From Methanobacteriota archaeon (lineage in GTDB: Archaea; Thermoplasmatota; DTKX01; VGTL01), in NCBI GenBank assembly GCA_016874675.1, contig VGTL01000017.1, positions 1 to 45,479 of the forward strand: a stretch of 45,479 nucleotides of DNA, given 5' to 3'. Each line of letters opens with the position of its first letter. Positions within the stretch are counted from its first letter, which is position 1. The notes beneath the pieces are model-generated. The model saw nothing but the letters and a program-made list of their open reading frames with translations, did not search any database and had not been told where the DNA came from. Positions 2,608 through 42,317 of this stretch are shown piece by piece. The translations under genes were made by a program, and so were the position numbers.

Positions 2608-2710
2608 AGGGGAGGAGGGCAGGAAGGCAGGAAGGGGACGACGGGCCGTTCCGTCCCTTGCTGCCTTCCTGCCTTTCTGCCTTCCTGCCTTTCTCCCTTT
2701 CCCCCTTCCC
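2608..2710. repeat. Intergenic hairpin element 1 (arms of GGCAGGAA-type units)
   Basis: A purine-rich left arm (2611-2637, units of GGCAGGAA) faces a pyrimidine-rich right arm (2655-2710, units of TTCCTGCC and TTTCTGCC). The arms flank a core at 2634-2657 that differs at one of 24 positions from the core of element 6 (20274-20297). The two arms can fold into a long imperfect stem. The element lies between the vapC stop and the amidohydrolase TATA box. It may end or insulate transcription; its function is unknown. Confidence 0.8.
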
Positions 2711-2728
2711 GCCAGGCGCAGCGCAGCC

Positions 2729-4718: not shown

Positions 4719-4809
4719 GGAAAGGGGAGCGGGGAGCGGGCCGCGGGGAGCAGTGGACGACGGTCCTTTTCGTCGCTGCTCCCCGCTGCCCGCTCCCCGC
4801 TCCCTTCCC
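4719..4809. repeat. Intergenic hairpin element 2 (arms of GGGGAGC units)
   Basis: The left arm 4719-4753 is tandem 7-mers of the type GGGGAGC. The right arm 4776-4809 is its reverse complement with only two mismatches and one indel over about 35 bp. The central 22 nt (4754-4775) contains GGACGACGG and TTCGTC, resembling the cores of the other elements. It is the most perfect hairpin of the family in this window. It fills the gap between the CBS gene and glyS. Confidence 0.85.
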
Positions 4810-4837: not shown

Positions 4838-6553
4838 ATGCCCGAACCGCCCGATACGCTTTCCAAGGTCCTGGCGCTCGCCAAGCGGCGCGGGTTTTTT
4901 TGGCCCTCCTGCGAGATCTACGGGGGGGTGGCCGGGTTCTACGACTACGGGCCGCTGGGCGCCCAGCTGAAGGCATCGGTGGAGGGGCTGTGGAGGAGCT
5001 ACTACGTGGCCGGCGAGGGCTTCGCCGAGCTCTCCGCGCCCGCAATCTCGCCCGAGGCGGTGTTCAGGGCGTCGGGCCACCTGGAGAAGTTCTCTGACCT
5101 CATGGCCGAGTGCGGAAAGTGCGGCGAGGCCTTCCGGGCCGACCACCTGCTCAGGGAGCTTGCGCCCGGCGAGGAGCCGCCCGCCTCCGTCGAGACGATG
5201 GCCGCGGCCCTCCGGAGGGCCGGCGCCCGCTGCCCGAAGTGCGGGGGCGACCTCTCCGAGCCGTTCGCCTTCAACCTCATGTTCCGCACCAACATCGGCC
5301 CCGGCACCCGGCGGCCGGGCTACCTGCGGCCCGAGACGGCCCAGGCGATGTTTCTGGACTTCGGGCTGCTCTACCGTCATTTCCGGGAGAAGCTCCCCTT
5401 CGGTGCCGTCCAGATAGGCCGGGGCTTTCGCAACGAGATAGCCCCCCGCCAGGGCATCATCCGGCTGCGCGAGTTCAACATGGCCGAGGCCGAAGTCTTC
5501 GTTGACCCGGAGAGGAAGGCCCGCCACCCCAGGTTCTCCGAGGTGGCGGGGATGAGGCTCCGCCTCGTGCCCGGCGAGGGCCCGGAAGGCGACCTTTCGC
5601 TGGGCGAGGCGGTCTCGAGGGGCACCATGGCCCACGAGAGCATCGCCTACTTCGTCGGCCTCACGGCGCGCTTCCTGGTCGAGGCCGGAGTGGACCCGGC
5701 GAGGCTGCGCTTCCGCCAGCACGCCCAAGACGAGATGGCGCACTACGCCGCCGACTGCTGGGACGCCGAGACGCTCCTCTCGTTCGGCTGGACGGAGGTG
5801 GTCGGCGTGGCGGACCGGACCTGCTACGACCTGGAGGCGCACATGAGGGCCTCCGGGCAGGACCTTCGGGCGTTCGCCCGTTACGAGACGCCGGTCACCG
5901 TCGAGAGAACGGTCGTCGCCCCGGTCCACGCGGTGCTGGGGCCACGGTTCAAGAAGGACGCCCGGGCGGTGGCGAGGGCCCTGGAGGCCCTGGAGGCCGG
6001 CGCCGTCGAGGGCCGGGACTCCGTGGAGGTGGAGGCGGACGGGCGGAAGCTGAAGGTGGAGAAGGACTGCTTCACCGTGAAAAAGACCACGGAGACCTCC
6101 AGCGGCCGCTGGTTCACGCCGCACGTGATAGAGCCGTCATACGGAATCGACCGCATAATCTACAGCGTCCTGGAGCACGCCTACTCCGAGACGAAGAAGG
6201 AGGGCGAGGATTATTTCGTCCTGAGGCTTCGGCCGATGATGGCGCCGATTCAGGTGGCCGTGTTCCCGCTCCTTAACAAGGATGAGCTGGTGGCGGTCGC
6301 CGACGACATCAACCGGCGTCTGGGGGAGGCCGGGTTCCGGACCCACTCGGAGGCGGCGGACTCGATAGGGCGGCGCTATGCCCGGATGGACGAGGTGGGC
6401 GCGCCGTTCTGCGTAACGGTCGATTTCGACACCCTGAAGGACGGGACGGTCACGGTGCGCGACCGGGACACGACGAGGCAGGTGCGGCTGGCGCTGGCGG
6501 AGGTCGCCGGGGCCGTCGGGGAATTGATCGAGGGCACCCGCAGAATCGATTGA
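4838..6553 (+). CDS. glyS: Glycyl-tRNA synthetase, archaeal/eukaryal dimeric type
   Basis: The 571-residue class II synthetase charges tRNA-Gly. The N-terminus has the family's KRRGFFWPSCEIYGG and GFYDYGPLG segments. A zinc-finger-like insertion has two CxxC pairs (CGKC and CPKC, about residues 91-145). Motif 2 is seen as FRNEIAPRQGIIRLREF, and motif 3 as EPSYGIDRIIYSVLEHAY. The C-terminal anticodon-binding domain begins near APIQVAVFPL. An AGGAG lies 11-15 nt before the ATG. It is preceded by hairpin element 2. It converges with the XRE regulator gene, 34 nt away. Confidence 0.96.
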   Translation: MPEPPDTLSKVLALAKRRGFFWPSCEIYGGVAGFYDYGPLGAQLKASVEGLWRSYYVAGEGFAELSAPAISPEAVFRASGHLEKFSDLMAECGKCGEAFRADHLLRELAPGEEPPASVETMAAALRRAGARCPKCGGDLSEPFAFNLMFRTNIGPGTRRPGYLRPETAQAMFLDFGLLYRHFREKLPFGAVQIGRGFRNEIAPRQGIIRLREFNMAEAEVFVDPERKARHPRFSEVAGMRLRLVPGEGPEGDLSLGEAVSRGTMAHESIAYFVGLTARFLVEAGVDPARLRFRQHAQDEMAHYAADCWDAETLLSFGWTEVVGVADRTCYDLEAHMRASGQDLRAFARYETPVTVERTVVAPVHAVLGPRFKKDARAVARALEALEAGAVEGRDSVEVEADGRKLKVEKDCFTVKKTTETSSGRWFTPHVIEPSYGIDRIIYSVLEHAYSETKKEGEDYFVLRLRPMMAPIQVAVFPLLNKDELVAVADDINRRLGEAGFRTHSEAADSIGRRYARMDEVGAPFCVTVDFDTLKDGTVTVRDRDTTRQVRLALAEVAGAVGELIEGTRRID

Positions 6554-6587
6554 ACGGTCGCTTCCGGGGGACCGAAGGGGGCAGGCC

Positions 6588-6872
6588 CTAGCCGCCGTCA
6601 CCGCTCGCCGCCGGCGACCGCCGCGCTCTCTTATCGATGGCCGGGCTGACGGCGGGGACCGGCGGGTTGGGCGGTTCCTCGTCGTCGAACAGGAACAGTC
6701 CTTCGATTCCGGCCCCGAGCGCCTTCGAAACATCGTGCGCGAGCTTGAGGGAGGGGACGTATTTCCCGGCTTCCATGTAAAGAATCGTCTCTCGCCGGAC
6801 GCCCACCCTGCGAGCAAGTTCCTCCTGGGTCATGTCGTATCTGGCGCGGAACTCCTTGATTCTGGTCCTCAT
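6588..6872 (-). CDS. XRE-family helix-turn-helix transcriptional regulator
   Basis: The 94-residue protein opens with a Cro/C1-type helix-turn-helix: [20 protein letters not shown] followed by [17 protein letters not shown] (about residues 9-45). It resembles small archaeal regulators linked to DUF2178 membrane proteins. The ATG overlaps the stop of the upstream membrane protein by 4 nt (ATGA), so it is translated from the same operon. It probably represses this operon through the palindrome at 8054-8071; that link is inferred from operon structure. The tail after about residue 68 is proline- and charge-rich and probably disordered. The stop is TAG. Confidence 0.85.
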
Positions 6873-12479: not shown

Positions 12480-12842
12480 TCAGAACCACATCGTGGCGCC
12501 CGCGTCGAGCGACAGGTCGTTCAGCGTCGCGGCGCCGACTATCTTGACGCCCTTGCGGAGCTCGACCTTGTCCCAGCCGAGCATCTGCTTGGACGCCTCG
12601 CAGACGAAGATCTCGATTCCCATCTCGAGGGTCTGGTCCATCATCTCGCCCAGCGAGGGGAACGACCCGAGCTTGACCTTCTCGGCGGTGCCGGGGGTCA
12701 GCACCCGCAATCCCTGCCCGAGGTAGTAGAGCTTCGGGTGCAGGCCCATCTTTTTGGCGGTCTGAGCCAGGACCAGCGGGGAATACTGCCTCTAGGGCTG
12801 GTCGCTCGTCTGCACATATAGCAGGAATTTCTCGTCTCTCAT
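12480..12842 (-). CDS. DsrE-like small protein gene with an in-frame TAG at codon 17
   Basis: From the ATG at 12842 the frame reads 16 residues (MRDEKFLLYVQTSDQP), a TAG at 12794-12792, then 103 residues in the same frame to a TGA. The part after the stop (RQYSPLVLAQTAKKMG, then HPKLYYLGQGLRVL, FVCEASKQMLGW and GAATLNDLSLDAGA) looks like a DsrE/peroxiredoxin-like fold, and the first strand FLLYVQTS completes that fold. GGAGGTG lies 5 nt before the ATG, so the upstream start is genuine. Either the gene is broken by a nonsense mutation or sequencing error, or TAG is read through. An internal ATG at 12749 would give only 89 residues lacking the first strand and helix. Confidence 0.65.
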
Positions 12843-14371: not shown

Positions 14372-14486
14372 GAATCCGGGTGCCGGGAGCCGGGAGCCGG
14401 GAACCGGGTGACGAAGCGTTCATCCCGGTACCCGGTCCCCGATACCCGGTCGTCAACCCGGCCCCCGGCCCCCGGCCCCCGGATTC
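14372..14486. repeat. Intergenic hairpin element 4 (arms of CCGGGNN units)
   Basis: The left arm (14376-14409) is five 7-mers of the form CCGGGTG, CCGGGAG and CCGGGAA. The right arm (14422-14482) carries complementary CCCGGNN units. The outermost 9 bp are perfect: GAATCCGGG (14372-14380) and CCCGGATTC (14478-14486). The core 14404-14427, read on the reverse strand, matches the core of element 7 (23838-23861) at 21 of 24 positions. The element sits between the phoU-like gene and the next TATA box. Confidence 0.8.
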
Positions 14487-14515
14487 ACACACCCCTCGCG
14501 CCTCGAAAACCAATC

Positions 14516-14523
14516 ATTATATA
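14516..14523 (+). promoter_or_regulatory. TATA box for the metalloprotease gene
   Basis: ATTATATA is only 8-15 nt before the ATG at 14531 but 26-33 nt before an in-frame GTG at 14549, so the leaderless start is probably the GTG. Confidence 0.5.
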
Positions 14524-14548
14524 TCCCAGTATGATTGAATCAAGCCTG

Positions 14549-17500
14549 GTGAGACTAGATAGGATTAATGGGCGGGGGCGGGGGTTGGCCGCCCTCCCGG
14601 TGCTGGGCATGCTGCTCCTGGGCGCTCTCTCGGTGCTTCCGGTCGCCCCGGGGGACGAGCCGCCGCCGGGCTTCTCGTGCGCCCTGAGGGTGGCCCCGGA
14701 CGGCAGCCTCTACCCCACACCCGTGAACTTCACCTTGCCCGACCTGTCCGGGGCCGAGAGGGCCGACCAGGGAAGGGGCCTCTACTGCAACATAATAAAC
14801 CAGAGCGGCCGCGTCATCCCCGCCGAGACGCTGCGCAGCCTCGACGAGAACTTTACCCTCTACATATGGCCCAACGTGACCGCCGCCTTCGGCACCCCGC
14901 CGTACTCGAAGATAAACATCATCATCGTCAACCAGGACGGCATGGGAGGGGTGGCCGGCTACTTCAGCTCGGGGGACCCGGACGCCATCTACCTCGACTA
15001 CGACGACCTGGGGCTAGACCTGGACGTCACCGCCCACGAGTTCCAGCACCTCATCCACAACTCCAAGGACCCCGGCGAGACCATCTGGCTCAACGAGGGC
15101 TGCTCGGAGTGCGCCATCTACGTCGCCTATGGCGGCGGCAACCCCGGCCTGACCAGCCATTTCATGTCGTACGGCTTGGACACCGACAACGACTTCACCG
15201 CCTGGAACACGGTCAGCGACTATGGCGGGGCCGGCCTGTGGACCATCTACAACTACGAGCGCTACGGCGGCAACGACTTCACGAGGGCCCTCGTGGCCGA
15301 CCAGGCCAGGGGCGTCCAGTCCTACAACAACCGGCTGGCTTTCAAGGACGAGACCTTCACCGGCGCGTTCAGGAAGTGGGTGGTCGCCAACTGGCTCAAC
15401 AACGCCTCCGTGGACCAGGGCGAGTGGGGCTACCGGGGCGTCTGGAACTACGTCGGCCACACCTTCCTCTTCAAGGACTACCCGATGACCTGCTCCTCGG
15501 CGGTCCAGCAGGCCAACGGCGCCGACTACATCCGGTTCGAGCCCGCGGTGTGGAACCAGAACGGGGGGGACCTCGAGGTCAACATCACGTTCACGAGCGG
15601 GACCGGCTACTGCGCCATGGCAATGGCGGCCCGGAGCCCCGTTGCGGACCGCGTGCTCGTCCCGACCATCACGGGGAACCGGGCGACGATGCTAGTGCCC
15701 AATCTCGGGGGGGATTACGCCGTCGCCGGGCTGGCCGTCTCCGGCCTCTCCGGCCCGTGCTCCTACACCTTCGAGGCCAGCATCATCGACATCACCCCGC
15801 CCAACACCACCGCCCGGGTGACGCCCCCCGCGCCCGACGGGAAAAACGGCTGGTACCGCCGCCTCCCAACGATAAGCTTCACGGTCAACGAGAACGCCAG
15901 CATATACTACGGCTGGGACGGCGGCGCCGGCACGAGATACTCGGCCCCCTTCAAGGCCCCCGAGGGGGTCCACGAGCTCTCCTTCCACGGGGAGGACCGC
16001 TACGGGAACGTCGAGCCCCCGAAGAGCCTAACGCTCAAGGTGGACACCATCGCCCCCGAGACCGTCCACAACATCACCCCCTCGGAGCCCGACGGGCTCA
16101 ACGGCTGGTACGTCAGCCCGGCCGAGATATCGTTGATCCCGGACACGCCCGGGGCCATCCTTTCCTGCGCCTGGGACGACGACGCCCTCCACGCCTACAC
16201 CGGGCCGATGCAGCTTCGCGAGGGCGTCCACCGGCTCAACTGGCGCGCCGAGGACGAGGCGGGCAACCTCGAGCAGCTCAAGGGGGTCATAACCAGGCTG
16301 GACACCGGGTTGCCGACGGTGGACTATAACCTCTCCAGCGAGCCGGACGGCCAGAACGGCTGGTACCTCCGGGCGCCCACGATATACCTGTCGAGCGCCG
16401 ACCCCGGCAACCCGGTGATATACTACAGCTGGGACGGCGGAAACGTCACCGAGTACACCCGCGAGTTTAGGGCCCAGATGGGCCGCCACACGCTCGACTT
16501 CTACGCCCTGGACGAGGCCGGCAACCGCGGGCCGCCCTCGAGCCTGGTCGTGAAGCTGGACCCGGTCGCGCCCACCATGAGGGCCACAACCGGAATCCCC
16601 GCCCCGGACGGCAACGACGGCTGGTACCGCACCGAGACGGACCTCACCCTCTCGACGGACGAGGCCTACGGGGCCACCATCTACTACAGCTGGGACGAGG
16701 GCGCGGAGGTTCTGTACGACGCCCCGCTGCCCGTGCCCGAGGGCGAGCACTCCATCAGCTGCCGGGCCATCGACGAAGCCGGCAACCGGGGCAAGGTCCT
16801 CACCCTGGCCTTCAAGATGGACTCCCTGCCGCCCGTCACCCAGCTGGGCATCAACCCGGAGGACCTGGGCGCGGCATGGTACCACGAGCGGCCCCGGGCG
16901 ACGCTTCGGACCGAGCCGGGGGCGTCCGTCATGTTCTCGGTCGACAACACGACCTTCCACAGGTACGTCCGGCCGGTGGAGATCGGCGAGGGGGTCACCT
17001 ACCTGACCTACTTCTCCCAAGACGTCGCCGGCAACAACGAGACGCCCTCGGTCCGCCGCTTCCGGGTGGACACCGTGCCCCCGGGCGTGCTCCTCAACCT
17101 GAGCAGCACGCGGGTGCTCACCGGCGAGCAGGTCAACCTCTCCGCCGCGGCCTACGACGAGAACGGCATCACGGAGTACCTCTTCGACTTCGGCGACGGC
17201 ACCACGAGCGCCTGGACGCGCTACGGCAACCTCTCCCGGAGCTTCGGCGCGCCCGGCAACTACGGCATCCGGGTCAAGGTGCGCGACGGCTCCGGGCTGG
17301 AGGCGACCTCGGAGCCGGTGCTCCTCAACGTGAGCGCCCCGCCCAGGAAGCAGGTCTCCCCGCCGCCGACGATCGGGGACCTGATGGCCTCCATACCGCC
17401 GCTGTTCTACTACCTCGTGTTCGCGCTGGTGGTCGCGGCCGTCGCGGGCGCCGGGCTGCGCCGGGTGGCGAGGGCCCGGCGCCGCCGGAGGCTCTACCGC

Positions 17501-18061
17501 GAGGTGGAGCGGGCGGAGGCCGAGCGGGAGGCCCGGCACACGCGCGAGATAGACGAGGAGGTGTCGGCGGACTACTACGGGGGCGACCGGGCGCTCTCCT
17601 CGGGCGGGTTCCGCGGCGGGCTGCCTGCGGGCCCCGCCGGCGGTCCGGGCGCGGGGGGCGGGTTCAGAAGCGTCCCGCCCGGCGCGTTCGCGGGCGAGCC
17701 GGCCGGCCGGCCGTCGCCCTCCTTCCGGCCTCCCCCGGACGCTCCGGCGGAACGCGCCGGCATCCCGGAGGCCCCGGCGACGACGGCCGCCCCCGACGGG
17801 CCGGCGGGTCCCGACTTCGGCGACGCCAGGCTCGTCGAGCGGTCCGAGCCCGAGCTCGTCCTCGAGGCCGAGATAGGCTCGAGCAAGCCCATATGGGCCC
17901 AGTCGAGCAAGGACACGGCGCAGAGGTCATCGAGGCCGGCCCGGATGCCCGAAAGCGCCCTGGCCGGGGGGCGCCCGGCCCGCCGGCCCGCCGGCGGCAG
18001 CCCGGACCTGAACCGGGAGCTCGACGATATCTTGAAACGGCTGAATCGGGATAATACGTAA
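14549..18061 (+). CDS. Membrane-anchored surface metalloprotease with Ig-like and PKD repeats
   Basis: The protein has about 1170 residues. Numbering from the in-frame ATG at 14531, an N-terminal hydrophobic signal segment (LAALPVLGMLLLGALSVL) leads to a zinc-protease domain with HEFQHLIH at 169-176 and NEGCSE at 188-193, supplying gluzincin-type ligands (two His plus a Glu). Next come five repeats of about 86 residues, four with the DGxNGWY or DGNDGWY motif and the fifth degenerate (AAWYHERP), each with a YYSWDGG-like strand. A PKD domain (YLFDFGDGTTSAW) follows, then a single transmembrane helix near 955-977 and a basic stop-transfer. The cytosolic tail is about 190 residues, low in complexity and rich in Pro and Gly. 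It is probably an extracellular protease fixed to the cell surface. It may start at GTG 14549 or ATG 14531. Confidence 0.85.
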   Translation: MRLDRINGRGRGLAALPVLGMLLLGALSVLPVAPGDEPPPGFSCALRVAPDGSLYPTPVNFTLPDLSGAERADQGRGLYCNIINQSGRVIPAETLRSLDENFTLYIWPNVTAAFGTPPYSKINIIIVNQDGMGGVAGYFSSGDPDAIYLDYDDLGLDLDVTAHEFQHLIHNSKDPGETIWLNEGCSECAIYVAYGGGNPGLTSHFMSYGLDTDNDFTAWNTVSDYGGAGLWTIYNYERYGGNDFTRALVADQARGVQSYNNRLAFKDETFTGAFRKWVVANWLNNASVDQGEWGYRGVWNYVGHTFLFKDYPMTCSSAVQQANGADYIRFEPAVWNQNGGDLEVNITFTSGTGYCAMAMAARSPVADRVLVPTITGNRATMLVPNLGGDYAVAGLAVSGLSGPCSYTFEASIIDITPPNTTARVTPPAPDGKNGWYRRLPTISFTVNENASIYYGWDGGAGTRYSAPFKAPEGVHELSFHGEDRYGNVEPPKSLTLKVDTIAPETVHNITPSEPDGLNGWYVSPAEISLIPDTPGAILSCAWDDDALHAYTGPMQLREGVHRLNWRAEDEAGNLEQLKGVITRLDTGLPTVDYNLSSEPDGQNGWYLRAPTIYLSSADPGNPVIYYSWDGGNVTEYTREFRAQMGRHTLDFYALDEAGNRGPPSSLVVKLDPVAPTMRATTGIPAPDGNDGWYRTETDLTLSTDEAYGATIYYSWDEGAEVLYDAPLPVPEGEHSISCRAIDEAGNRGKVLTLAFKMDSLPPVTQLGINPEDLGAAWYHERPRATLRTEPGASVMFSVDNTTFHRYVRPVEIGEGVTYLTYFSQDVAGNNETPSVRRFRVDTVPPGVLLNLSSTRVLTGEQVNLSAAAYDENGITEYLFDFGDGTTSAWTRYGNLSRSFGAPGNYGIRVKVRDGSGLEATSEPVLLNVSAPPRKQVSPPPTIGDLMASIPPLFYYLVFALVVAAVAGAGLRRVARARRRRRLYREVERAEAEREARHTREIDEEVSADYYGGDRALSSGGFRGGLPAGPAGGPGAGGGFRSVPPGAFAGEPAGRPSPSFRPPPDAPAERAGIPEAPATTAAPDGPAGPDFGDARLVERSEPELVLEAEIGSSKPIWAQSSKDTAQRSSRPARMPESALAGGRPARRPAGGSPDLNRELDDILKRLNRDNT

Positions 18062-18066
18062 AAACG

Positions 18067-18393
18067 GGGCAGCAAGGCAGCAAGGCAGCAGGGCAGCAAG
18101 GGAAGGCAGCAAGGCAGCAAGGCAGCAAGGCAGCAAGGCAGCAAGGCAGCAAGGCAGCAAGGCAGCAAGGCAGCAGGGCAGCAAGGCAGCAGGGCAGCAA
18201 GGGAAGGCAGAAAGGCAGCAAGGCAGAAAGGGGAATGGTCGTTCGTCCCTTGCTGCCTTTCTGCCCTGCTGCCTTCCTGCCACCCTTGCTGCCTTTCTGC
18301 CCTGCTGCCTTCCTGCCACCCTTGCTGCCTTTCTGCCCTGCTGCCTTCCTGCCACCCTTTCTGCCTTTCTGCCCTGCCGCCCTCCTGCCTTTT
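18067..18393. repeat. Intergenic hairpin element 5 (long arms of GGCAGCAA units)
   Basis: This is the largest element. The left arm (18067 to about 18230) has about twenty tandem units, mostly the 8-mer GGCAGCAA, with some GGCAGCAG or GGCAGAAA. The right arm (18248-18393) is the complementary TTGCTGCC/TTTCTGCC/TTCCTGCC set. The short core around 18231-18247 (GGGAATGG, then TCGTTCGTCCC) resembles the other cores. It fills almost all of the space between the metalloprotease stop and the argS TATA box. Confidence 0.85.
18251..18358. repeat. Three tandem 36-bp units within element 5
   Basis: In the right arm a 36-bp unit starting TGCTGCCTTTCTGCC repeats at 18251, 18287 and 18323, virtually unchanged, followed by a partial copy. 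The left arm has no such 36-bp order, so this is a recent local duplication. Confidence 0.75.
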
Positions 18394-18399
18394 CCGCAG

Positions 18400-18407
18400 C
18401 TTTTAAG
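18400..18407 (+). promoter_or_regulatory. TATA box for argS
   Basis: CTTTTAAG lies 25-32 nt before the ATG at 18432, matching a leaderless start and arguing against the TTG at 18411. Confidence 0.5.
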
Positions 18408-18431
18408 TCGTTGAAAGTCAGTCGCCGCCCG

Positions 18432-20168
18432 ATGACCACTCGCCCGCTCAAGGCGTTCCGGGACCGGGCCGCATCCTCGCTGGCCCGGGGCCTGCGCGAG
18501 CTCGGCACGAGGGAGGTCGGGCCGGCGCTGGAGGCCCTCTCGCTCGCGCCGGAGGGCCGGGGAGATTTCGCCTTCCCGTGCTACGCGCTTGCCAGGGAGC
18601 TGCGCAAGGCGCCGGCCGCGATCGCCGCCGACCTCGTCCAGTACACCGGCCTCCCCGGGCCTTTCGACAGGGTGGAGGCGGCCGGTGCGTACGTCAACTT
18701 CCACCTGCGCCCGGAGGCGCTCGCCCACTCGGTCCTCTCGGCCGTCCTGGAGGAGAAGGCGCTCTACGGGACCGAGCCGGACAACGGCCGCCGCGTGATA
18801 GTGGAGCACACCAGCGCCAACCCCAACGGCCCGTTCCACGTCGGCCGCGCCAGAAACCCGATAATCGGCGACGCCGTGGCGCGCCTTCTGCGCTCGGCCG
18901 GCTTCGACGTCGAGACGCAGTACTACGTCAACGACATGGGCAAGCAGGTCGCGATACTGGTCTGGGCGCTCGGGAGGTTCCGGCCGGAGGAGCTGCCCGC
19001 GGTGGAGCGGGAGAAGCCCGACCACGATTACGTGCGCTACTACCAGAAGGCCTCGCCCCTCATAGAAACTGACGAGGGGGTCAACGAGGAGGTCCAGGCG
19101 ATGCTCTCCGCCTACGAGGGCGGCGACGACACGGTCGGGGAGAGATTCCGCAGGGCCTCCCAGCACGTCCTCGACGGCATGGAGCAGTCCCTCGCCCGGC
19201 TCAACGTGACCGTGGACCACTTCGTCTGGGAGTCCCAGTTCGTGGAGGACGGCTCCGCCCGGGCGGTCGTCGACGGGCTCAAGCGCGCCGACTGCGTCGG
19301 GGAGGAGGAGGGCGCCCACTTCCTCGACCTCCGAGACCGCGGCATACACGGCCGGGACGCGCGCTTCTTCTTCACGCGCCATGACGGCACGACGCTCTAC
19401 ACCACCCGCGACATCGCCTACCACCTGTACAAGCTCTCGCACTGCGACCTCGCCATAAACGTTTTGGGCGAGGACCACAAGCTCGAGTCCCGCCAGCTTG
19501 CGGTCGCGCTGGAGCTTCTGGGCTCCCTCCGCCTGCCGGAGGTGCTGTTCTACTCGTTCGTCGGCCTGCCCGAGGGCAAGATGTCCACCCGCCGCAACCG
19601 CGTGGTCTACCTCGACGACCTCATCGACGAGGCCGTGGAGCGGGCCTACGAGGAGGTCCGCAAGCGCCGCTCCGACCTCGACGAGGCGCGGATGAGGCGG
19701 ATAGCCGAGCTCGTCGGCGTCGGTGCCCTCCGGTACAACGTGATACGGGTCCAGCCCGAAAAGCAGATAGTCTTCAGGTGGGAGGAGGCCCTGAACTTCG
19801 AGGGCAACAGCGCGCCCTTCATCCAGTACTCCCATGCCCGCTGCTGCTCGATACTCGGAAAGTCCGAGGGCTACGACCGGTGGGACGCCGAGGTGCTCGT
19901 CGCGCCGGAGGAGGCCGGCCTCGCCCGGGCGCTGGCGCGGTACCCTGAGACCGTGGTGGAGGCGGCGTCCCAGCGGAGGCCCCACCTGGTCGCCGCCTAC
20001 GCCCACGAGTGCGCCGCGGTGCTCAACCAGTTCTACAAGTCCTGCCCGGTGCTCAAGGCGGAGACCGACGCCCTTCGCGCGGCGCGGCTTGCCCTCGTGG
20101 ACTCTTCGCGGTGGGTGCTTCGCAACGCCCTCACGGTGCTGGGGATAGATGCGCCGGAGGAGATGTAG
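18432..20168 (+). CDS. argS: Arginyl-tRNA synthetase
   Basis: The 578-residue class I synthetase charges tRNA-Arg. The HIGH-type signature is seen in the HTSANPNGPFHVGRARN stretch, and the KMSKS-type loop in EGKMSTRRNR. The N-terminal Arg-tRNA-synthetase-specific domain (FAFPCYALARELRKAPAAIA) and the C-terminal DALR anticodon-binding domain (HECAAVLNQFYKSCPV and the final LTVLGI) are both present. Length is typical. The ATG at 18432 is chosen over TTG 18411 because of the TATA spacing. It is flanked on both sides by hairpin elements with the same GGCAGCAA unit (elements 5 and 6). The stop is TAG. Confidence 0.96.
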   Translation: MTTRPLKAFRDRAASSLARGLRELGTREVGPALEALSLAPEGRGDFAFPCYALARELRKAPAAIAADLVQYTGLPGPFDRVEAAGAYVNFHLRPEALAHSVLSAVLEEKALYGTEPDNGRRVIVEHTSANPNGPFHVGRARNPIIGDAVARLLRSAGFDVETQYYVNDMGKQVAILVWALGRFRPEELPAVEREKPDHDYVRYYQKASPLIETDEGVNEEVQAMLSAYEGGDDTVGERFRRASQHVLDGMEQSLARLNVTVDHFVWESQFVEDGSARAVVDGLKRADCVGEEEGAHFLDLRDRGIHGRDARFFFTRHDGTTLYTTRDIAYHLYKLSHCDLAINVLGEDHKLESRQLAVALELLGSLRLPEVLFYSFVGLPEGKMSTRRNRVVYLDDLIDEAVERAYEEVRKRRSDLDEARMRRIAELVGVGALRYNVIRVQPEKQIVFRWEEALNFEGNSAPFIQYSHARCCSILGKSEGYDRWDAEVLVAPEEAGLARALARYPETVVEAASQRRPHLVAAYAHECAAVLNQFYKSCPVLKAETDALRAARLALVDSSRWVLRNALTVLGIDAPEEM

Positions 20169-20173
20169 GGAAA

Positions 20174-20386
20174 AGGCAGCAAGGCAGCAAGGCAGCAAGG
20201 CAGACCGTAGAAGACCGGCAGCGGCCGGTCTTCTCGGCCGAGACGAGCGAAGCTCGTCTACGGAAGGCAGAAAGGGGACGACCGGCCGTTCCGTCCCCTT
20301 CCGGACCCGCTTGCTGCCTTTCTGCCTTCCCCTGCTGCCCTGCTGCCTTGCTGCCTTGCTGCCTTGCTGCCTTCCTGCCTTTCCTC
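20174..20386. repeat. Intergenic hairpin element 6 (GGCAGCAA arms with a nested structure)
   Basis: The left arm is GGCAGCAA repeats (20174-20204), then a separate folded segment (20205-20263), then GGCAGAAA. The core 20274-20297 is nearly identical to that of element 1. The right arm (about 20310-20386) carries TTGCTGCC repeats. It lies between argS and the next promoter (CTATTTTAAG at 20387-20396). Confidence 0.8.
20205..20263. other. Nested multi-stem structure inside element 6
   Basis: An outer stem CCGTAGA (20205-20211) with TCTACGG (20257-20263) encloses two perfect hairpins: AGAAGACCGGC (20209-20219) with GCCGGTCTTCT (20224-20234), and AGACGAGC (20241-20248) with GCTCGTCT (20252-20259) around a GAA loop. 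A CGGCCG palindrome lies between them. The outer stem shares a few bases with each inner stem, so the pairings compete at the junction. It looks like a small structured insertion into one arm of the element. Confidence 0.65.
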
Positions 20387-20471
20387 CTATTTTAAGCAAG
20401 TCTTGCCTTTGACCATAAAGTTATTATCATGAGACAATATCTATCAAGCGGGGACAGTGGAGGGAATCGCA

Positions 20472-23400
20472 ATGGACCTGAAGAGGGGATTGCTCTTCGC
20501 GGCGGTCGCGGCGATGGTCATGACGTCCTTCTCGGGCCTGGTGGCGGGCGCAGGGGCCGACACGGGCGCGCCGGCCGGCTCCAGCGGGATATCCTGGAAG
20601 CCGGTGGTGCCGGTGAAGTCCGCGGCGATCGTCGGCTACGACCCGAACTCGTACGCGGACGACTACGCCTACCTGGCGGCGGTCCCCTCGGCAACCTTCT
20701 ACTCCGGTTCGTCCGACAGGCTCTACTCCTACCCGGTGCTCTTCTACCAGCCCGAGACCGACCTCCCCGACGAGGACAAGGTGCTCAACCCGGGGCAGGG
20801 CGTCCGGTACTTCGCCGAGGACTGGATGACCTACTGCGGCGGCAGCCTCGACCGCGTCCAGTTCATCAACCTGCCCGGCGGCAAGGCCGGCGAGGCGATG
20901 TCCGCCCTCAACCTCACCGCTGCCCCGAAGGGCCAAAGCGTCCTCCCAGTGCGGAACCCGTTCGCAACGGCCCGCGACATAGCGCTAACGAACTGGGAGT
21001 CCTCCCAGGAGGCGGTCGTGGCGGTGGTGAAGGAGGACTACCCCGCCGCCACGCTCAAGACCAAGGGCACCGTGAACGGGACCATCCCCTCGTCCTACAA
21101 GGTCCAGACGAGGTCCATCACCGGCGACAAGGATGTCGGGATAACCCCCACATATCACAATTTCACGGTGGACGAGCCGGTGAAGTACATCCAGGCCCAC
21201 ATGGACTGGTCCGGCACCGTGGGCGCCCTGGACCCGATAACCCAGAGGGGCAAGGACCCCGACCTCGCCCTTTACGACTGGCAGCTCGGGCAGTGCTCGG
21301 CCTCCTCCAACTGGAACGTGCTGTCCGGCGTGGGCGAGGATTGCGGCTCCTACGTCTACCACTGGGGCGACTGGGGCTTCGCCGTCACCTACATGCCGAC
21401 CAAGGCGATGTCCGACGACGAGACGGGGCTCACCGGGCTCCTGCCCGTGCCCCCGCCGGCACCGGCGCCGGAGCAGGGCGCGCCCCAAGACCCCCCTAGC
21501 CGGCCGACCACGGCCCAATACACCATCGACTACACACTGATGCCCGGTATGGAGGTCACCCTCAAGGACAAGACCTGCTACTTTGCCCGCGACGCCTCCT
21601 TCACCCTCTCTTGGTCCGGCGACGCCAAGCTGGGGATCGCCATCATCGGCCCGGAGGGGGCCGAGATCTCCTACGACGCCACGGGCGTTTCGCCCCAGCA
21701 GGTCAACCTCGAAGAGCTGGGCGAGGGGCAGTACAAGGTGGCCGTTGTAAAGCTCGCCGACTCCTCCTCGGACGCCGACTGGAAGCTCGAGTACTCCTGG
21801 AAGCAGAACAGGACCCGCCTCGAGGGCGACTGCCTCGCCGGGGCGGCCAACGCCGCGGTGCTCGCCTCCCTCCGCAACGCCCCGCTGCTGTATGCCAGGC
21901 CCGACGGCGTGCCGGGCGAGACGCTGGAGGCGCTGGACACCCTGGGCGTCACCCGGGTCCATCTCGTCGACCTCAACAGCCACGGGGGCGACGCCACCCT
22001 CAAGGGGCTCACCGGCCACCGCAGCCTCTTCCAGCCCAAGATAGACGCCACCCGCTACACTTCCTACAAGTCCGTCTACGACCGGATAACCGGCATCACC
22101 AAGACCACCTCTGCCGTCTTCACCACCATCGACCCTTGGTCGTACTGGAAGGTCGGCGGGAGCGGCCCGGCCGGCGAGGAGCCCAAGGGCCTCTTCATCG
22201 GCCCGGCGGCGCTCGCGGCCGCCCACCACGGGACGCCCGTGCTCGTCGCCGACAACGCCGGCAACCTGTCCTGCGCCAAGGCCTGGTACAACAAGTTCTG
22301 GCTCGACGCCTATCCGAGCCGCGCCCCGCCCTCCGTGAGCTGCATGGCGCTCACGGCCCGCAGCATCTACAAGCACCTGGGCGACATCGGGCTGGACAGG
22401 CCCGGCAAGGAGAACATCACCACCGTGGCGGACCAGTTCGACATCGGCTCCGCCTGGGACCGGGCGCTCGTGGGCGGCGCCAACGCCGGCCGCATAATGG
22501 GCTCCCCGGTGGACGCCGCCTACTGGGTGGCCCGCTGCGCCCTCTACCAGGCGGTGATATTCGCCAACCCGGCGACGGACCCGGAGGGCGTCGACATGGT
22601 GACCGGCACCGAGTCGATTCTGCCGCCCGGCCCGGAGGTCGCCGGGGTGCGCACCATCGAGGGTATCCCCACGCATGTCACCGCCCCCGTCGTGCAGACC
22701 TGGGTGAGCTACCAGCACCGGTTCAACGAGCGGGCGAGCAAGTACTGGCGGACGAACTATGTCACCGCCACGGGCATAACCCCGTACTGGGACCCCTCGG
22801 ACAACCCGATCGACGAGGGCGTCAACGCCGCCTACGGCCAGACCGGGCAGTACTGGCCGGACATCACCACGAGCGAGGTGGTGCCATTCTACGTCGAGAA
22901 GGCCGGGTACTCGTCGGTCTACTCGACCAACTTCGACGACACCATGGACAACCTGAACAAGGGCACCATCATGTGGCTAGAGGTCATGCACGGCGGCAAC
23001 CGCGGCTCGGGCGTGGTCGGGTTCTGGCGCGACGACTTTCGCCACAACGAGAAGAACCCCTGGCGCGGGTACGAGGCCTCCGGGTCCACCCGGGAGCCGG
23101 ACACCTACGCGATGTCCAAGCTGGTCGGGTTCGACATGCACCGGTCAGTCTCGGAATACGACCGCGACGGCGTCATAATAGCGATATTAAACCAGGAGGA
23201 GACGGTCAGCAAGAACGGCTACGACTTCGACAACGCTTTGGAGAACGTACACTCCATGGGCTTCAACGGCGGCTCCTGCCTGATAGCCAACACCTACATG
23301 CACCTGACGATGGTGCGCCACGGCTCCGTGTTCCAGGTCATCGACCCGTGGCTGACCTCGTGGTACGCCTCCTTTGCCATGGCAACCTTCGCGCGGGGCA

Positions 23401-23768
23401 TAGCCCAGGGCATGTCCATCGGGGAGTGCTACTCCGAGGGCATCAAGCACGTCGGCATCGAGTACCTGACGGGCCAGTGGTGGTGGGACATCTACGAGAA
23501 CGTCATCTACTACGGCGACCCGAAGATAAAGGCCTGGAGCCCGGCGAACGCCTGGGCCGAGCCCTTGCCCCTCAAGGCCGGGTCCGTCGTGGACGGCCAC
23601 GCCCCGTTCGGCGCCGACCGGCATCCGGCGGCGATAGGCTCGACGCTGGCGCTCGAGATCGCCCTCTTCGGCGGTTTGGCGCTCGTGGTCGCGGCCGCGG
23701 TCATCCTCCGGTGGAGGAAGATCCGTGTCCGGGACCTCCCGTCCCGGGCGAGGAAGCAGAGGGCGTGA
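20472..23768 (+). CDS. Large surface protein with C25-peptidase-like features
   Basis: The 1099-residue protein has a signal peptide (residues 1-32) and one C-terminal transmembrane helix (ALEIALFGGLALVVAAAVIL) followed by a basic tail. About residues 455-500 (LAGAANAAVLASLRNAPLLYARP, then TLEALDTLGVTRVHLVDLN) resemble a cell-wall-binding type 2 repeat. Near the end, EVMHGGNRG (His840) and NGGSCLIAN (Cys936) could be a His-Cys catalytic pair, and the segment AQGMSIGECYSEGIKH to IYYGDPKIKAW resembles the end of gingipain-like (C25) domains. The His-Cys spacing of 96 residues is longer than in gingipains, so activity is uncertain. The ATG at 20472 has GGAGGG 7 nt upstream. Confidence 0.6.
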   Translation: MDLKRGLLFAAVAAMVMTSFSGLVAGAGADTGAPAGSSGISWKPVVPVKSAAIVGYDPNSYADDYAYLAAVPSATFYSGSSDRLYSYPVLFYQPETDLPDEDKVLNPGQGVRYFAEDWMTYCGGSLDRVQFINLPGGKAGEAMSALNLTAAPKGQSVLPVRNPFATARDIALTNWESSQEAVVAVVKEDYPAATLKTKGTVNGTIPSSYKVQTRSITGDKDVGITPTYHNFTVDEPVKYIQAHMDWSGTVGALDPITQRGKDPDLALYDWQLGQCSASSNWNVLSGVGEDCGSYVYHWGDWGFAVTYMPTKAMSDDETGLTGLLPVPPPAPAPEQGAPQDPPSRPTTAQYTIDYTLMPGMEVTLKDKTCYFARDASFTLSWSGDAKLGIAIIGPEGAEISYDATGVSPQQVNLEELGEGQYKVAVVKLADSSSDADWKLEYSWKQNRTRLEGDCLAGAANAAVLASLRNAPLLYARPDGVPGETLEALDTLGVTRVHLVDLNSHGGDATLKGLTGHRSLFQPKIDATRYTSYKSVYDRITGITKTTSAVFTTIDPWSYWKVGGSGPAGEEPKGLFIGPAALAAAHHGTPVLVADNAGNLSCAKAWYNKFWLDAYPSRAPPSVSCMALTARSIYKHLGDIGLDRPGKENITTVADQFDIGSAWDRALVGGANAGRIMGSPVDAAYWVARCALYQAVIFANPATDPEGVDMVTGTESILPPGPEVAGVRTIEGIPTHVTAPVVQTWVSYQHRFNERASKYWRTNYVTATGITPYWDPSDNPIDEGVNAAYGQTGQYWPDITTSEVVPFYVEKAGYSSVYSTNFDDTMDNLNKGTIMWLEVMHGGNRGSGVVGFWRDDFRHNEKNPWRGYEASGSTREPDTYAMSKLVGFDMHRSVSEYDRDGVIIAILNQEETVSKNGYDFDNALENVHSMGFNGGSCLIANTYMHLTMVRHGSVFQVIDPWLTSWYASFAMATFARGIAQGMSIGECYSEGIKHVGIEYLTGQWWWDIYENVIYYGDPKIKAWSPANAWAEPLPLKAGSVVDGHAPFGADRHPAAIGSTLALEIALFGGLALVVAAAVILRWRKIRVRDLPSRARKQRA

Positions 23769-23772
23769 GACG

Positions 23773-23882
23773 GCCGGGTGCCGGGGGCCGGGTGCCGGGG
23801 GCCGGGTGCCGGGTGCCGGGGGCCGGGGGCCGGGTGCCGGGACGAACGCGTCGTCTCCCGGCCCCCGGCACCCTGCACCCGG
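23773..23882. repeat. Intergenic hairpin element 7 (arms of GCCGGGT/GCCGGGG units)
   Basis: The left arm (23773-23840) is nine or ten GC-only or nearly GC-only 7-mers (GCCGGGT, GCCGGGG). The right arm (23856-23882) is complementary. The centre GACGA-ACGCG-TCGTC (23841-23855) is itself a small palindrome. It lies between two convergent genes. The GGG-rich strand could also form G-quadruplexes. Confidence 0.8.
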
Positions 23883-34674: not shown

Positions 34675-37600
34675 CTAGTCCTCCGGGCCGTCCTCCAGGT
34701 CCTCGGCGCTCACGCTGGATACGACCTCCATCCGGCCGGACGGCCCCCTCCCGGAGGCCCCGTCGGACTCCTCGGTGGCCGGTGCACCGGGGCCTGCCTC
34801 CGGGCCGCCGGCATCCGCCTCCGGGCCGCCGGGGCCCGCCTCCCGGTCCCCGCCCTCGCCCCCGGGCAGAGGGGCTTCCGGCTCGGGCTCCCCCGCCCGC
34901 CTTCTCCGCCCCATCATGTAGACACCGGAGGTGGCGAGCGCCGCGAGGGCCACGATCACCACGATAATATAAGGCGCCCCCTCGACGGAAAGGAGGGACC
35001 CGCCCGGGGAGGCAGGCGCGCTCCTGGTCCGGAACGTCTGGTCGGGACCGGCGGACGGCCCGTTCCCGGAGGCGTCCGTCGCCTTGACGCTGAAATGGTA
35101 GGTGGTCCCGGCCGCCAGGCCGGGTATGGTTATCCGGTGGACGGTCCGGTACTGCGGCGAGGCCGCCGTCTTCCCGTAGGCGTCGGTCGTCCCGTACTCG
35201 AGAAGGACCGCGCCCGGCTCGTCGAGCACGACCTCGACAGTGACATTGTCCGTCCCGGCCAAAAGAACGCGGCATTCGCGAATCGACGGCGGGGCTGCGT
35301 CCCCGACCGTCGCGGTGGTGAATGTCAGGTCCCCGCTGAACGACGGGCCGTTGCCGGAGGCGTCCGTCCCGCCCACGCGGAAGTGGTACTCCCGGCCGGG
35401 GAGCAGGCCGGTGAGCAGCACGACGTGGGATACCTCCAGCCGCCCGGAGCTCAGGACGCGCGTGTAGTTCGAATCCGGCCCGCACTCCAGCCGGCTGTCG
35501 GCGGGCTCGTCCGTGGTCCAGCTCACCACCGCCAGCGTATCCGTCACGCCGGTCACGGAGACCCCGCTGATCACCGGCGGCGCGGTGTCCGGCGAGGAGA
35601 GCGTGGCGAACGTCAGGAGCCCGCTCTGGCCGGGGCCGTTGCCGGAGGGGTCGGTGGACCCGGCCCTGAAGTAGTACACCGTCGAGGCTGCCAGGCCGAC
35701 CAGTAGCACCGAGTGCGACTGCACGAGGGTCGGGTCGGCGGCGCGCGTGCCGAGCTCCCTCCCGGTCCCGTACTCGACCGCGCTGTCGGCCGGCTCGTCG
35801 GTGTCCCAGAGCACGAGGGCGGTCCGGTCCGAGAGGGCCGCCACCCGGACGTTCGAGACCACCGGGGCCCGGCGGTCCTCCCGCTTCTGGGTCCGGAACG
35901 CCACATCGGGCGAGAAGGAGGGCCCGTTGCCGTAGAGGTCCCGCCCGCTGATGCGCAGGTGGTACTCGGTGGCGGCCTGGAGCCCTGTGAGGGTCAGGCT
36001 GTGCTGCGTGGAGTAGGCGGCGTCGGAGAGCGAGCGCCCGTAGGCGGTGGAGGTGCCGTACTCCACGAGGCCGTCCGAGGGCTCGTCGGTGGTCCAGGTG
36101 ACCACGGCGATGGTCTGGGCCACGCCCGAGACCTGCACCACGCCGATGGTCGGCCGGGTGGTGTCCAGAAGGATCGTGTCGCTCGCAGGCCCGGCGACGT
36201 TCCCGGCCCGGTCGCGCACGCGGAAGTGGACGATCCGCGTCCCGTCGCCGGGCGAGAAGGTGAAGGTCGAGGCGCCCGAGTAGGGCATCCATCCGGTCCA
36301 GAGCGCGCCGTCCTCGCTGAAGGCCATCTCCCCGACCCCCGAGGCGGGGTCCGGGTCCAGGGCCACAAGATACAGCGCCACCGTGGCGTTGGTCGCATAG
36401 GCGGCACCGCCGGCGATGGTCACCGAGAGCGAGACCGGGCGCACCGTGTCGAGCAGGATGCCGTCGCTTCCCGCGCTCCCGACGTTGCCGACGCGGTCCC
36501 GGACCTTGACATAGACGGTCTTCGTGCCGTCGGCCCCGGAGAGCGTCCAGGCGCGCGTGGAGTTGAAAGGCTCCCAGGCCTCGTAGGAGAGGCCGTCGCG
36601 GCCCAGGGCCATCTCGGAGAGCCCCGAGCCCGGTTCGGCGTCCGAGGCCTGTATCGAGAGCTCCACGTCCGTGCGGTTGGTCCACTCGATCCCGGAGTTT
36701 ATGGTCACGGCGACGCCCGAGGGCGCCATGGTGTCCAGCACGATGGTGGCTTCGGCCGCGGGGCAGGCGTTCTCCACCCGGTCGCGCAGATGGACCCGGA
36801 CGGTCCTCGTACCGTCGCTCCCGGCCAGCGTGATCCCCCAGCTGCCGGCGTGCTGCTCCCAGGGGGACCACTCCCCGTCGTCCACCCGGTGGCGCCGCTG
36901 GTGCAGGCCCGAGCCGGGCGACGGGTCGGACGCCGAGAGCGATATCCGCACGTTGGGGCTCGCCGTGAAGGGCGCGCCCGAGTCTATGCTCAGGTTGGCA
37001 ACGATTGGCGGCGCGGTGTCTATGAAGTAGGGGCCGCGGTGGACCGCCCCGGTCGCCCAGTTGCCGGCTGTGTCCCTCGTCCGGATGTGGAAGTACCAGC
37101 CGTCGCCGTCCGCGAGCGGCGCGCTCGCGGCGCTCAGGGTGTCCGCCCCGTCCGTCACGACCTCGGCGGGCAGGCTGTCGGCCGAATTGTCCCAAAGCAG
37201 GGCGTAGCCCTCAACGCCGCTGATGGAGGCGTCCGCCGCCGACCAGTTCATCTCCACGGTGTTGCGGGCGCTCCAGACCTGCGCCCTGTGGGAGCGGCTC
37301 TCGACCACGAGCGGGTTCTTTGGAGGGCTGGAGTCTATCCAGAACGGCCCGAGCGTGGCGGCGTCCGTCGCCCAGTTCCCGGCGCGGTCGAGGGCCCGGA
37401 TGTGGAAGTAGATCGCGTCGCTGTCGGGCATCGGCGGGCTCGTGGCCGAGGCGGCCTCGGCGCCCAGGTCCATCGTCGCGTCCGGGATGGTGCCCGGGCT
37501 CGTGTCCCAGACGATGGAGAACCCCGCGTAGCCGCTGAGGCGGCCGCCGCCGTCGGCGACGGACCAGGCGACGTCGATGGTGGGGTCGTTGGACCAGGTC

Positions 37601-39900: not shown

Positions 39901-42317
39901 AACACCGATATAAAGAATTGCTAAACCCTCTATTAAACCTATCGTCGATTGCTCCCGGGCGGCGGGGCTTCCTGCTCCTAACCCACGGCGCGCCCTCTCC
40001 GCCTCATCAGGTAGACACCGGCGCTGGCGAGCGCCACCAGGCATACGACCGCCACGAGTATGTACGGAGCGCCCTCCGACGACAGAAGCGACACACCCGG
40101 TCCGGGCGGGTCGCCCCTGGTCCGGAACGTCCGGTCGGGACCGGTGGACGGCCCGCTGCCCGCGGTGTCCGTCGCCTTGATTCTGAAATGGTAGGTGGTC
40201 CCGGGCGACAGGCCGGGAATGGCAATCTGGTGCACCGTCTCGTACTCCGGCGAGGCCACGGTCTTGCCATAGGCGTTTGTCCTCCCGTACTCGACCACGA
40301 CCGCGCCCGGCTCGTCGAGCACGACCTGGACGGTCACATTGTCCGTCCCGGCCGAAAGGACGCTGCTCTCCCGGATCGACGGCGGGGTGGAGTCGATGAA
40401 CAGCGGCCCGAAGTGGGCCGCGTCGGACGCCCAGTTGCCCGCCTCGTCACTGGTCCTGATGTGGAAGTACCAGAGGCCGTCGGGGAGGGTGGGGCCGGTG
40501 GCGCAGGTCTCGGAGGCGTTGTGCTCCTTAACCGCGTCCGGAATCGTGGACGGGGAACCGTCCCAGGCCACCGAGTAGCCGTTCAGCCCGGAGATGGAGG
40601 CGTCGGCGCCGGTCCAGTGGACCTTGACAGTCGTGACATTGCTCCAGACGTTCACTGCATGGGTGGAGCTGGAGACCGTCGGGTTGGTGGGCGGCGCGGT
40701 GTCGACCCAGAAGGGGCCAAGGTGGGCCGCGTCGGGGGCCGCGTTGCCGGCGACGTCCAGGGCCCGGATGTGGAAGTAGATGCTCTTGCTGTCGGACATC
40801 CCCGGGCCGGTCAGGCTAGATTCCGAAGTGCCGATTTCACGGGTGGTGTCCGGCAGGATGGAAGGTGAGGGGTCCCAACTCAATGAGAACCCGTCCAGGC
40901 CGCTGCCGGAGTCCGAGGCGCCGCTGAAGCTCACGTCGATGGTGTTGTCGGTGGACCACCGGGCCACGGTGTGGCTCGGGCTGGACAGGGAGGTGGGATT
41001 GGACGGAGGCGTGGCGTCTATCTTGATCGTGCGGGCGATGCACCAGTCGCTGGTATCGTCGTTGGAGTCCCACACCCGGGCGCGCCAGTAATAGGTCCCG
41101 TCCGCAATGGCGGAGGCGGGCGTGTGGGAGGTGTCGGCCGAGGAGACCTTTCCGCTGTCGTGCTCTGGCGAGCCGAAGTCGCTCCTGTCGTCCACCTGCA
41201 CCTGGTAGGCGGTCTGGCGTTCCTGCGGGTCCGTGTCCCTGAACGCCCAGGTGAAGGTGGGCTGGCCGGTCGTCGTCCAGCTGTCGTCGGCTGGGGAGTC
41301 AGGGGTCGGGGGCTCCAGGGCGGTGTTCCATCCCTCGGCGTAGCCGAACTTCAGCGTGGTACCGCTCGCACCGGTGTACCACATGAGATAGGTTGTGCCG
41401 TTGTGGACGACGCACGAGGACAGCACATCATGGGCTTCCCAGCCACTCCCCGTCGGGCTGAGCACAGGATTGTTGGCGAACTTGGTCCAGGATATGCCAT
41501 CGCTGGAGGTGGCGTGGCCTATGGCCCAGTTCTGGCCACTGTAGCCGCTGTACCACATCCGATAGGAGCCAGAAATATGCAGAATGCAGGGTATGGTCAC
41601 GTGAGAATCGTCCCAGCCGGTGTTCGCGCCCAGAGCGAGGACCGGGTTGTTCGCATGTTTGGTCCACTCGATTCCATCGCTCGAGGTCGCATATCCGATT
41701 CTCTGGATTGAGCCGTCCTGCCCCGCATACCACATCTTGTAGCCCTCCGCGTGCTTCAACACGCAGGGGTCCAGCACCATGTTGTCGTCCCAGGCGCCGT
41801 TCGACCCTATCGTCAGGACCGGGTTGCCGGAATACCTCGTCCAGGAGATTCCATCGCTTGAGGTGGCGTAACCTATTCTCCAATGCAATCCGTCGTAACC
41901 GATATACCACATCTTGTAGGTCGCCCCGTCAAGCATCACATACGAGGCCGCGACATCATGGGAATCCCAGCTGCCCGGCGCGCCGAGGTCCAGGACCGGG
42001 TTGGAAGCGTGCTTCGTCCAGGATTTACCGTCGCCCGAGGTCGCCAGGCCGATCCTTTGATGCGAACCGTCATACCCGGCGTAGTACATCTTGTAGCCTG
42101 TCCCGTCGTTCAGAACGGAATTGCAGTATGTCCAGGAGGGATCGTCGTCCCAGGCGCCGTTCGGTCCGGCGCTGAGAACGGGGTTGTCGGCGTAGCGAAT
42201 CCATTTCACGGGCGAGGCGGCCGCCGCGGCGGCAGGTTGCGTGGACATCAACGGCCCGATGTACGCAAGCAACAGGAAAACGAATGCAAATGCAATATAC
42301 CGCCGCTTTCTCCCCAT
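37950..42317. repeat. Tandem duplication spanning the two propeller genes
   Basis: The coding segments 40390-42317 and about 37950-39900 encode the same domain order with high protein identity, including the signal peptide, and their promoters share a TTTAATA box. This is best explained by tandem gene duplication followed by domain gain in the downstream copy (or loss in the upstream copy). Confidence 0.8.
39978..42317 (-). CDS. Surface protein with five-bladed propeller, short paralogue
   Basis: The 779-residue protein has a signal peptide, five propeller blades, one FN3-like domain (YYWRARVWDSNDD), two ~104-residue repeats, one FN3-like domain, a transmembrane helix and a very short basic tail (MRRRGRAVG). 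Each part is closely similar to the corresponding part of the downstream 1741-residue protein. The latter differs by an extra block of about 870 residues inserted exactly at a domain boundary, plus a long acidic tail. It starts at ATG 42317 with TTTAATA about 32-40 nt upstream, as in its paralogue. It is probably surface-exposed and sugar-binding, by fold resemblance only. Confidence 0.85.
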   Translation of the reverse strand: MGRKRRYIAFAFVFLLLAYIGPLMSTQPAAAAAASPVKWIRYADNPVLSAGPNGAWDDDPSWTYCNSVLNDGTGYKMYYAGYDGSHQRIGLATSGDGKSWTKHASNPVLDLGAPGSWDSHDVAASYVMLDGATYKMWYIGYDGLHWRIGYATSSDGISWTRYSGNPVLTIGSNGAWDDNMVLDPCVLKHAEGYKMWYAGQDGSIQRIGYATSSDGIEWTKHANNPVLALGANTGWDDSHVTIPCILHISGSYRMWYSGYSGQNWAIGHATSSDGISWTKFANNPVLSPTGSGWEAHDVLSSCVVHNGTTYLMWYTGASGTTLKFGYAEGWNTALEPPTPDSPADDSWTTTGQPTFTWAFRDTDPQERQTAYQVQVDDRSDFGSPEHDSGKVSSADTSHTPASAIADGTYYWRARVWDSNDDTSDWCIARTIKIDATPPSNPTSLSSPSHTVARWSTDNTIDVSFSGASDSGSGLDGFSLSWDPSPSILPDTTREIGTSESSLTGPGMSDSKSIYFHIRALDVAGNAAPDAAHLGPFWVDTAPPTNPTVSSSTHAVNVWSNVTTVKVHWTGADASISGLNGYSVAWDGSPSTIPDAVKEHNASETCATGPTLPDGLWYFHIRTSDEAGNWASDAAHFGPLFIDSTPPSIRESSVLSAGTDNVTVQVVLDEPGAVVVEYGRTNAYGKTVASPEYETVHQIAIPGLSPGTTYHFRIKATDTAGSGPSTGPDRTFRTRGDPPGPGVSLLSSEGAPYILVAVVCLVALASAGVYLMRRRGRAVG

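Follow-up and report, generated by a model that had tools for sequence, protein, structure and literature searches.

The hairpin elements of this locus, in which two arms built from the same short repeated unit surround a similar centre, raise the question of whether such palindromes are kept symmetrical by copying from arm to arm, or whether they are copies of a spreading element whose arms change on their own. The window (the whole stretch of 45,479 nt that was analysed) is contig C17 of an archaeal genome of 3.36 Mb in 189 contigs, whose 23S rRNA is archaeal. The element survey covered 1.23 Mb of the 3.36 Mb. An unsupervised inverted-repeat scan over this sample gave 154 loci, from which the clear elements were picked by GC-skew; these number 126 (103 per Mb), which extrapolates to about 345-350 genome-wide. 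The pattern GGCAGNAAGGCAG has 1612 matches in the genome, as compared to 0 for the reversed control. Coding calls were made by a simple script.

In each element a short centre separates a tandem array of a G-rich word of 7-8 bp from one of the complementary word, with GGCAGCAA and CCGGGTG among the array words and arms that often reach 10-20 units. The G-rich arm lies 5' of the centre in every one of the 126 clear elements, and no genuine case of the reverse order was found among them, the two reversed calls being merged neighbours. Four dialects dominate the sample: A with the unit GGCAGNAA (n=56), B with GGCGCAA/GGCGCAG (n=36), C with GGGCAGC/GGGGAGC (n=23) and D with CCGGGTG/CCGGGAG (n=8). 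The arms of an element are paired A/A in 36 cases, B/B in 33, C/C in 20, D/D in 5 and concentrically BA/BA in 7, and only about two simple elements have dialect-discordant arms. Because B lies outside A on both sides in seven concentric elements and A outside B in a single one, this arrangement points to an entry of A elements close to the centre of B elements. Closely similar element pairs in opposite orientation, 4-7 kb apart, are present at L096 (10682 and 18106) and L075 (8675 and 12761); here the left arm of one matches the right arm of the other.

The window contains at least six hairpin elements, of which the original prediction took in four (Table 1). In the longest dialect A element the left arm comprises about 19 octamers, while the right arm is made up of four 36-bp higher-order repeats, which are absent on the left; these unequal arms are a case of independent arm growth. 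Besides the hairpins, the region 34858-42200 holds genes for long repeat-domain proteins; the copies are spaced by about 2.4 kb and share 85-90% identity over 300 nt.

Table 1. Hairpin elements of the window and the insert nested in one of them.
Feature	Positions	Strand	Core or centre	Fold (kcal/mol; z)	Remarks
Dialect A (GGCAGNAA) hairpin element	2612..2713	.	2634-2657	-55.5; -4.7	
Dialect C (GGGGAGC/GGGCAGC) hairpin element	4724..4804	.	GTGGACGACGGTCC..CGTCGC		missing from the original prediction
Dialect D (CCGGGTG/CCGGGAG) hairpin element	14374..14487	.	14404-14427		8 bp downstream of an ORF that has its stop at 14366
Dialect A element, longest of dialect A in the window	18066..18393	.	about 18226-18250		
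Dialect A element	20173..20388	.	20274-20297		between argS (stop 20168) and the gene that follows
Insert X	20205..20264	.	two adjacent hairpins, GGCC(T/G)A linker	-42.9; -6.3	in the left arm of element 20173-20388 only
Dialect D element	23773..23882	.	23838-23861		between convergent genes (stop 23768 on +, end of lhr-type helicase 23890 on -)

The centres had been described as homologous in spite of divergent arms. The two core matches on which this was based hold: 2634-2657 agrees with 20274-20297 at 23/24 positions, where the best of 20,000 palindrome-preserving shuffles reaches 21, and 14404-14427 agrees with the reverse complement of 23838-23861 at 21/24 (shuffle best 19 of 20,000), but at only 11/24 when read forward. 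The arms of these pairs are not divergent, as both partners have the same dialect, A (GGCAGNAA) in the first pair and D (CCGGGTG) in the second. Core pairs from different dialects in the window agree at chance level (13/24, P=0.18; 12/24, P=0.56). For the sampled elements the cores were scored with a weight matrix and palindrome-preserving shuffles. In total, 37 of the 56 dialect A cores exceed the 99th percentile of shuffled palindromes, a figure that is optimistic since the matrix was trained on dialect A itself; half-site counts and the pairwise shuffle tests are independent of it. The core type is GGGACGGAACGAnCCGTCGTCCC, about 23 bp long, and high-scoring dialect A cores occur genome-wide in either orientation, 21 as '+' and 16 as '-', just as had been expected. 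A setting of core orientation by transcription was ruled out (9 against 7). The half CGTCGTC is found in 24 of 56 A elements (1.1 expected) and in 16 of 23 C elements (0.3 expected) and is rare in B, so that the retention of core halves by other elements is true of A and C and does not extend to dialect B, which is without this core. As the half is common to both above expectation, the cores of A and C probably have a common ancestry. The core flanks are dialect-specific, of the GTCCACC/GGTGAC type with C arms and of the GTCCCC type with A arms (Fisher P=1e-9). On these sequence comparisons the parsimonious reading is that core and arms diverged together, whole elements giving rise to families, rather than that arms were swapped around a fixed core, and the proposed replacement of arms around a persistent core is not needed. 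A widespread mobile core was also considered and rejected, the 13 scattered single matches in 257 Gb being taken as chance.

It had further been proposed that any change in one arm needs to be copied into the opposite one. When the arms of 30 dialect A elements, oriented by their core, were compared by alignment, an arm was as similar to foreign opposite arms (0.443) as to its own partner (0.440), and the best same-side foreign arm surpassed the element's own other arm in 29/30 and 28/30 elements. The side identity of these oriented arms is of modest significance (P=0.019). Among all 56 dialect A elements, only two have their own partner arm as the best match, and the median rank of the partner is 26. 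The two arms thus use the same unit at the level of the dialect but not at that of finer unit variants, the counts of which are hardly correlated between the two arms (r from -0.32 to 0.25). Arm lengths are weakly correlated (rho 0.18), and one-sided expansions, including GGCAGCAT runs, lead to cases such as L096 10648 with 2 units on the left and 33 on the right. The longest exact match between the own arms nevertheless exceeds the permuted values in dialect A (P=0.0066), in B (P<0.0002) and in C (P=0.005), and in 11 of 115 elements (8/36 B, 2/23 C, 1/56 A) this match is longer than any other and confined to the one element: 51 nt at L155 13248, 49 nt at L082 19822, 45 nt at L068 2770, 40 nt at L076 10185, and 38 nt each at L061 12127 and L065 14617 for the longer ones. 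Because of this private identity some arms appear to have been copied or born as inverted duplications, and the best reading of the 11 elements is recent inverted birth or occasional copying from arm to arm, events that concern a minority. Own arms that resemble each other more than foreign arms, as in a self-correcting quasipalindrome, are hence a feature of few elements, mostly B, and are not seen by alignment in dialect A. Self-correction is mostly not the pattern seen, the arms changing independently in most elements. Both the observation and the interpretation of the original prediction were borne out in part, core homology and both orientations on the one side, whereas the divergence of the arms, the agreement of finer units and obligatory copying between arms did not stand.

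Between contigs, sister elements show a strong match in just one of the two orientations, for example with 100 direct versus 53 inverted, therefore core and both arms travel together; the arms of sisters match those on the same side, so that it is the whole element that spreads. Among the relatives obtained only one other genome belongs to the same family (G001, ArgS 71% identical) and none to the same genus. It retains the order of argS, the counterpart of window 20472-23768 (68%) and lhr (57%), and both syntenic gaps around this counterpart are without elements, as are the approximately 195 kb of this genome that were read. A comparison of the same loci in close relatives had been suggested as a way to see arm pairs switch units; run at this family distance, it showed the two loci simply empty. 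No target-site duplication of the kind expected for a MITE is definable against G001, the relatives being too divergent. Dialect A occurs in 1/60 genomes, none of the other relatives among the 60 having it; dialect B occurs essentially in 1/390, with a single isolated match among the 389 others. A similar system in the phylum relative G016 was dismissed, as the matches there are GCGCGAG-rich coding sequence.

Regarding the position relative to genes, 73 of the 121 stop sides have the element edge between -10 and +25 bp of the stop codon. Among the 89 start sides only 6 are as close, and about 50 bp are left there between element and start codon. Convergent gaps are occupied more often (22% vs 12%, odds ratio 2.1, P=0.002), while divergent gaps (12%) equal tandem gaps. 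Elements are also present within genes: at L072 19344-19470 a dialect D element lies in frame in the universal gene Kae1 (ORF 18782-19894), adding about 49 codons that the homologues of four relatives lack, and other in-frame dialect D elements were found in HdrA-like genes.

A second repeat, insert X, is formed by two hairpins around the conserved GGCC(T/G)A linker and is located mostly inside the arms of large elements of several dialects. Copies were identified at L063 13123, L073 12611, L090 872 and 982, L095 14459, L096 11022, L141 3527, L145 16642, L148 6392 and 12650, and L151 7438, a count biased by the search, which demanded perfect stems. The stems co-vary, because both strands changed between copies (GACGACC/GGTCGTC, GAGGACC/GGTCCTC, GAAGACCG/CGGTCTTC); copies anchored on hairpin 2 alone show the same co-variation with a few mismatches. 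At L148, about 12620-12700, one insert X apparently sits in the hairpin loop of another, a nesting at the palindrome centre. Tandemly duplicated structured repeats of other types, unrelated to the hairpin family, are found at L091 11160-11614 (AAATCCCGTTCGGTCC... type) and at L094 1020-1386, the latter starting at an apparent tRNA 3' end. Hairpins with a G-rich 5' and a C-rich 3' arm of the GGCAGTAA type are also seen on the matching strand of two IMG/VR contigs (L184 1250-1500, L186 about 6400-6700). Their centres are unrelated to the element core, and the layout may thus exist in unrelated genomes. A- and B-type words in IMG/VR form mostly one-armed arrays; on these arrays and the unrelated centres of L184 and L186, viral carriers were rejected.

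We give a probability of roughly 60% to the reading that these are palindromic insertion repeats, lineage-specific and present in high copy number, which belong to a few related families and whose arms slip independently. The unit of spread would be the core of about 23 bp with the array of the G-rich word to its left and the complementary array to its right, and core plus both arms are indeed found together again at unrelated sites, in either orientation. Between the two arms of an element there are differences in length, in unit variants and in higher-order repeats; after copying, each arm would grow or shrink alone by replication slippage, so that only the dialect would be inherited on both sides. 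Insertions would survive where they are harmless, in the space between stop codons and promoters, and hence directly after stops and about 50 bp before starts, and some copies would insert near the centre of older ones and give rise to the concentric two-dialect elements. No transposase is tied to the elements: an intact Y1-type gene (Y1_Tnp) lies on the small contig C71 with no repeats in the 2.3 kb read, and a second Y1-type copy on C5 is degraded. One RVT (reverse transcriptase) gene is present on C8. Instead of insertion, ectopic gene conversion among repeats already present could account for part of the spread.

Several other explanations were weighed against insertion followed by slippage. 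A selected RNA or DNA function without mobility, with the 3'-end hairpins or G-rich structures acting as terminators or mRNA stabilisers and their pairing under selection, is unlikely: the tight placement past stop codons, the enrichment of convergent gaps, the very stable folds and the similar placement of the mostly transcribed G-rich heptamers of Xanthomonas (PMC4692102) would fit, but divergent gaps are as often occupied as tandem ones, elements lie in frame inside enzyme genes, the same gaps are empty in the family-level relative and arm length varies hugely. We regard as quite unlikely a self-correcting palindrome in which template switching or gene conversion copies the arms and arm pairs are replaced around a persistent core. 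Such copying would account for the dialect agreement of both arms, for the arm-arm matches above permutation in A, B and C including the 11 private ones of up to 51 nt, and for core halves shared by A and C despite different arm units; against it stand own arms no closer than foreign ones in the largest dialect, one-sided expansions and dialect-specific core flanks.

There is a slim chance that the palindrome centres themselves are the drivers, in that a repeat-extended G-rich 3' end would fold back at the core hairpin and be copied into a perfect palindrome with the G-rich strand 5', together with the birth of later elements inside the centre of older ones. If true, this would explain the invariable G-rich-5' order and the concentric elements, the outer arms at L155 with 51 nt identical around a differing interior, and the insert X in the hairpin loop of another. 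That short-read assembly scrambled or invented the repeat arms is hardly credible. The assembly is fragmented, 5 of the 32 contig ends examined lie inside elements as compared to 2.5% of random positions, and chimaeric joins could also have lowered own-arm similarity, but gene order across two elements is conserved relative to G001, elements are in frame in genes and sister copies keep their side identity.

The closest described system is that of the convergent G-rich heptamer repeats of Xanthomonas and Nostoc, with the units GGGAATC and GGGGA(C/T)T and inverted convergent pairs, about 70-75 per genome in Xanthomonas and able to form hairpins (PMC4692102). In Xanthomonas they lie 0-50 bp after stops with the G-rich strand sense, or antisense upstream of genes, differ in length among relatives and prefer four units (PMC4692102). 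The archaeal elements likewise are tandem G-rich units of about 7 bp at many, mostly intergenic loci, with the G-rich strand sense less than 50 bp from the stop and antisense upstream of starts, as follows from the edge positions combined with the invariable G-rich-5' order. In contrast to Xanthomonas, the host is archaeal, neither the GGGNATC consensus nor a preference for four units is found (the units being GGCAGNAA, GGCGCAA, GGGCAGC and CCGGGTG), several 7-8 bp dialects coexist in one genome, the palindrome is the rule, and the elements share a core in both orientations, with concentric and in-gene copies.

Cyanobacterial genomes carry small dispersed repeats and STRR (short tandemly repeated) heptamers, arrays in which small structured inserts are nested. 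Insert X in its arrays is alike by description only, and the host domain differs. Rickettsia palindromic elements are about 150 bp long and are not known to have tandem arms. They are palindromic repeats found in frame inside conserved protein genes (review PMC10969869), to which the in-frame copies described here are likened by description only. REPINs, the REP doublets associated with RAYT transposases, are dispersed non-coding hairpins that replicate as a whole, insert into existing copies and show compensatory changes (PMC3116915), and these are the points of likeness to the elements here. In contrast, a REPIN consists of two short palindromic REPs around a spacer whereas our elements are tandem arrays, and their arms are without a conserved REP-like 16-mer at the ends. 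An origin from REPIN/RAYT was rejected on this architecture and on the lack of a Y1 transposase beside the elements (no repeats near the C71 gene, the C5 copy broken).

G-rich heptamer hairpins have been described before in bacteria; here they are archaeal, number in the hundreds and come in at least four related dialects. With a traceable core and in-frame copies in universal genes, the genome offers copies in sufficient number to tell insertion, slippage and arm-to-arm copying apart. It speaks for a spread of such repeats as whole units, and for their being tolerated and not kept by self-correction.
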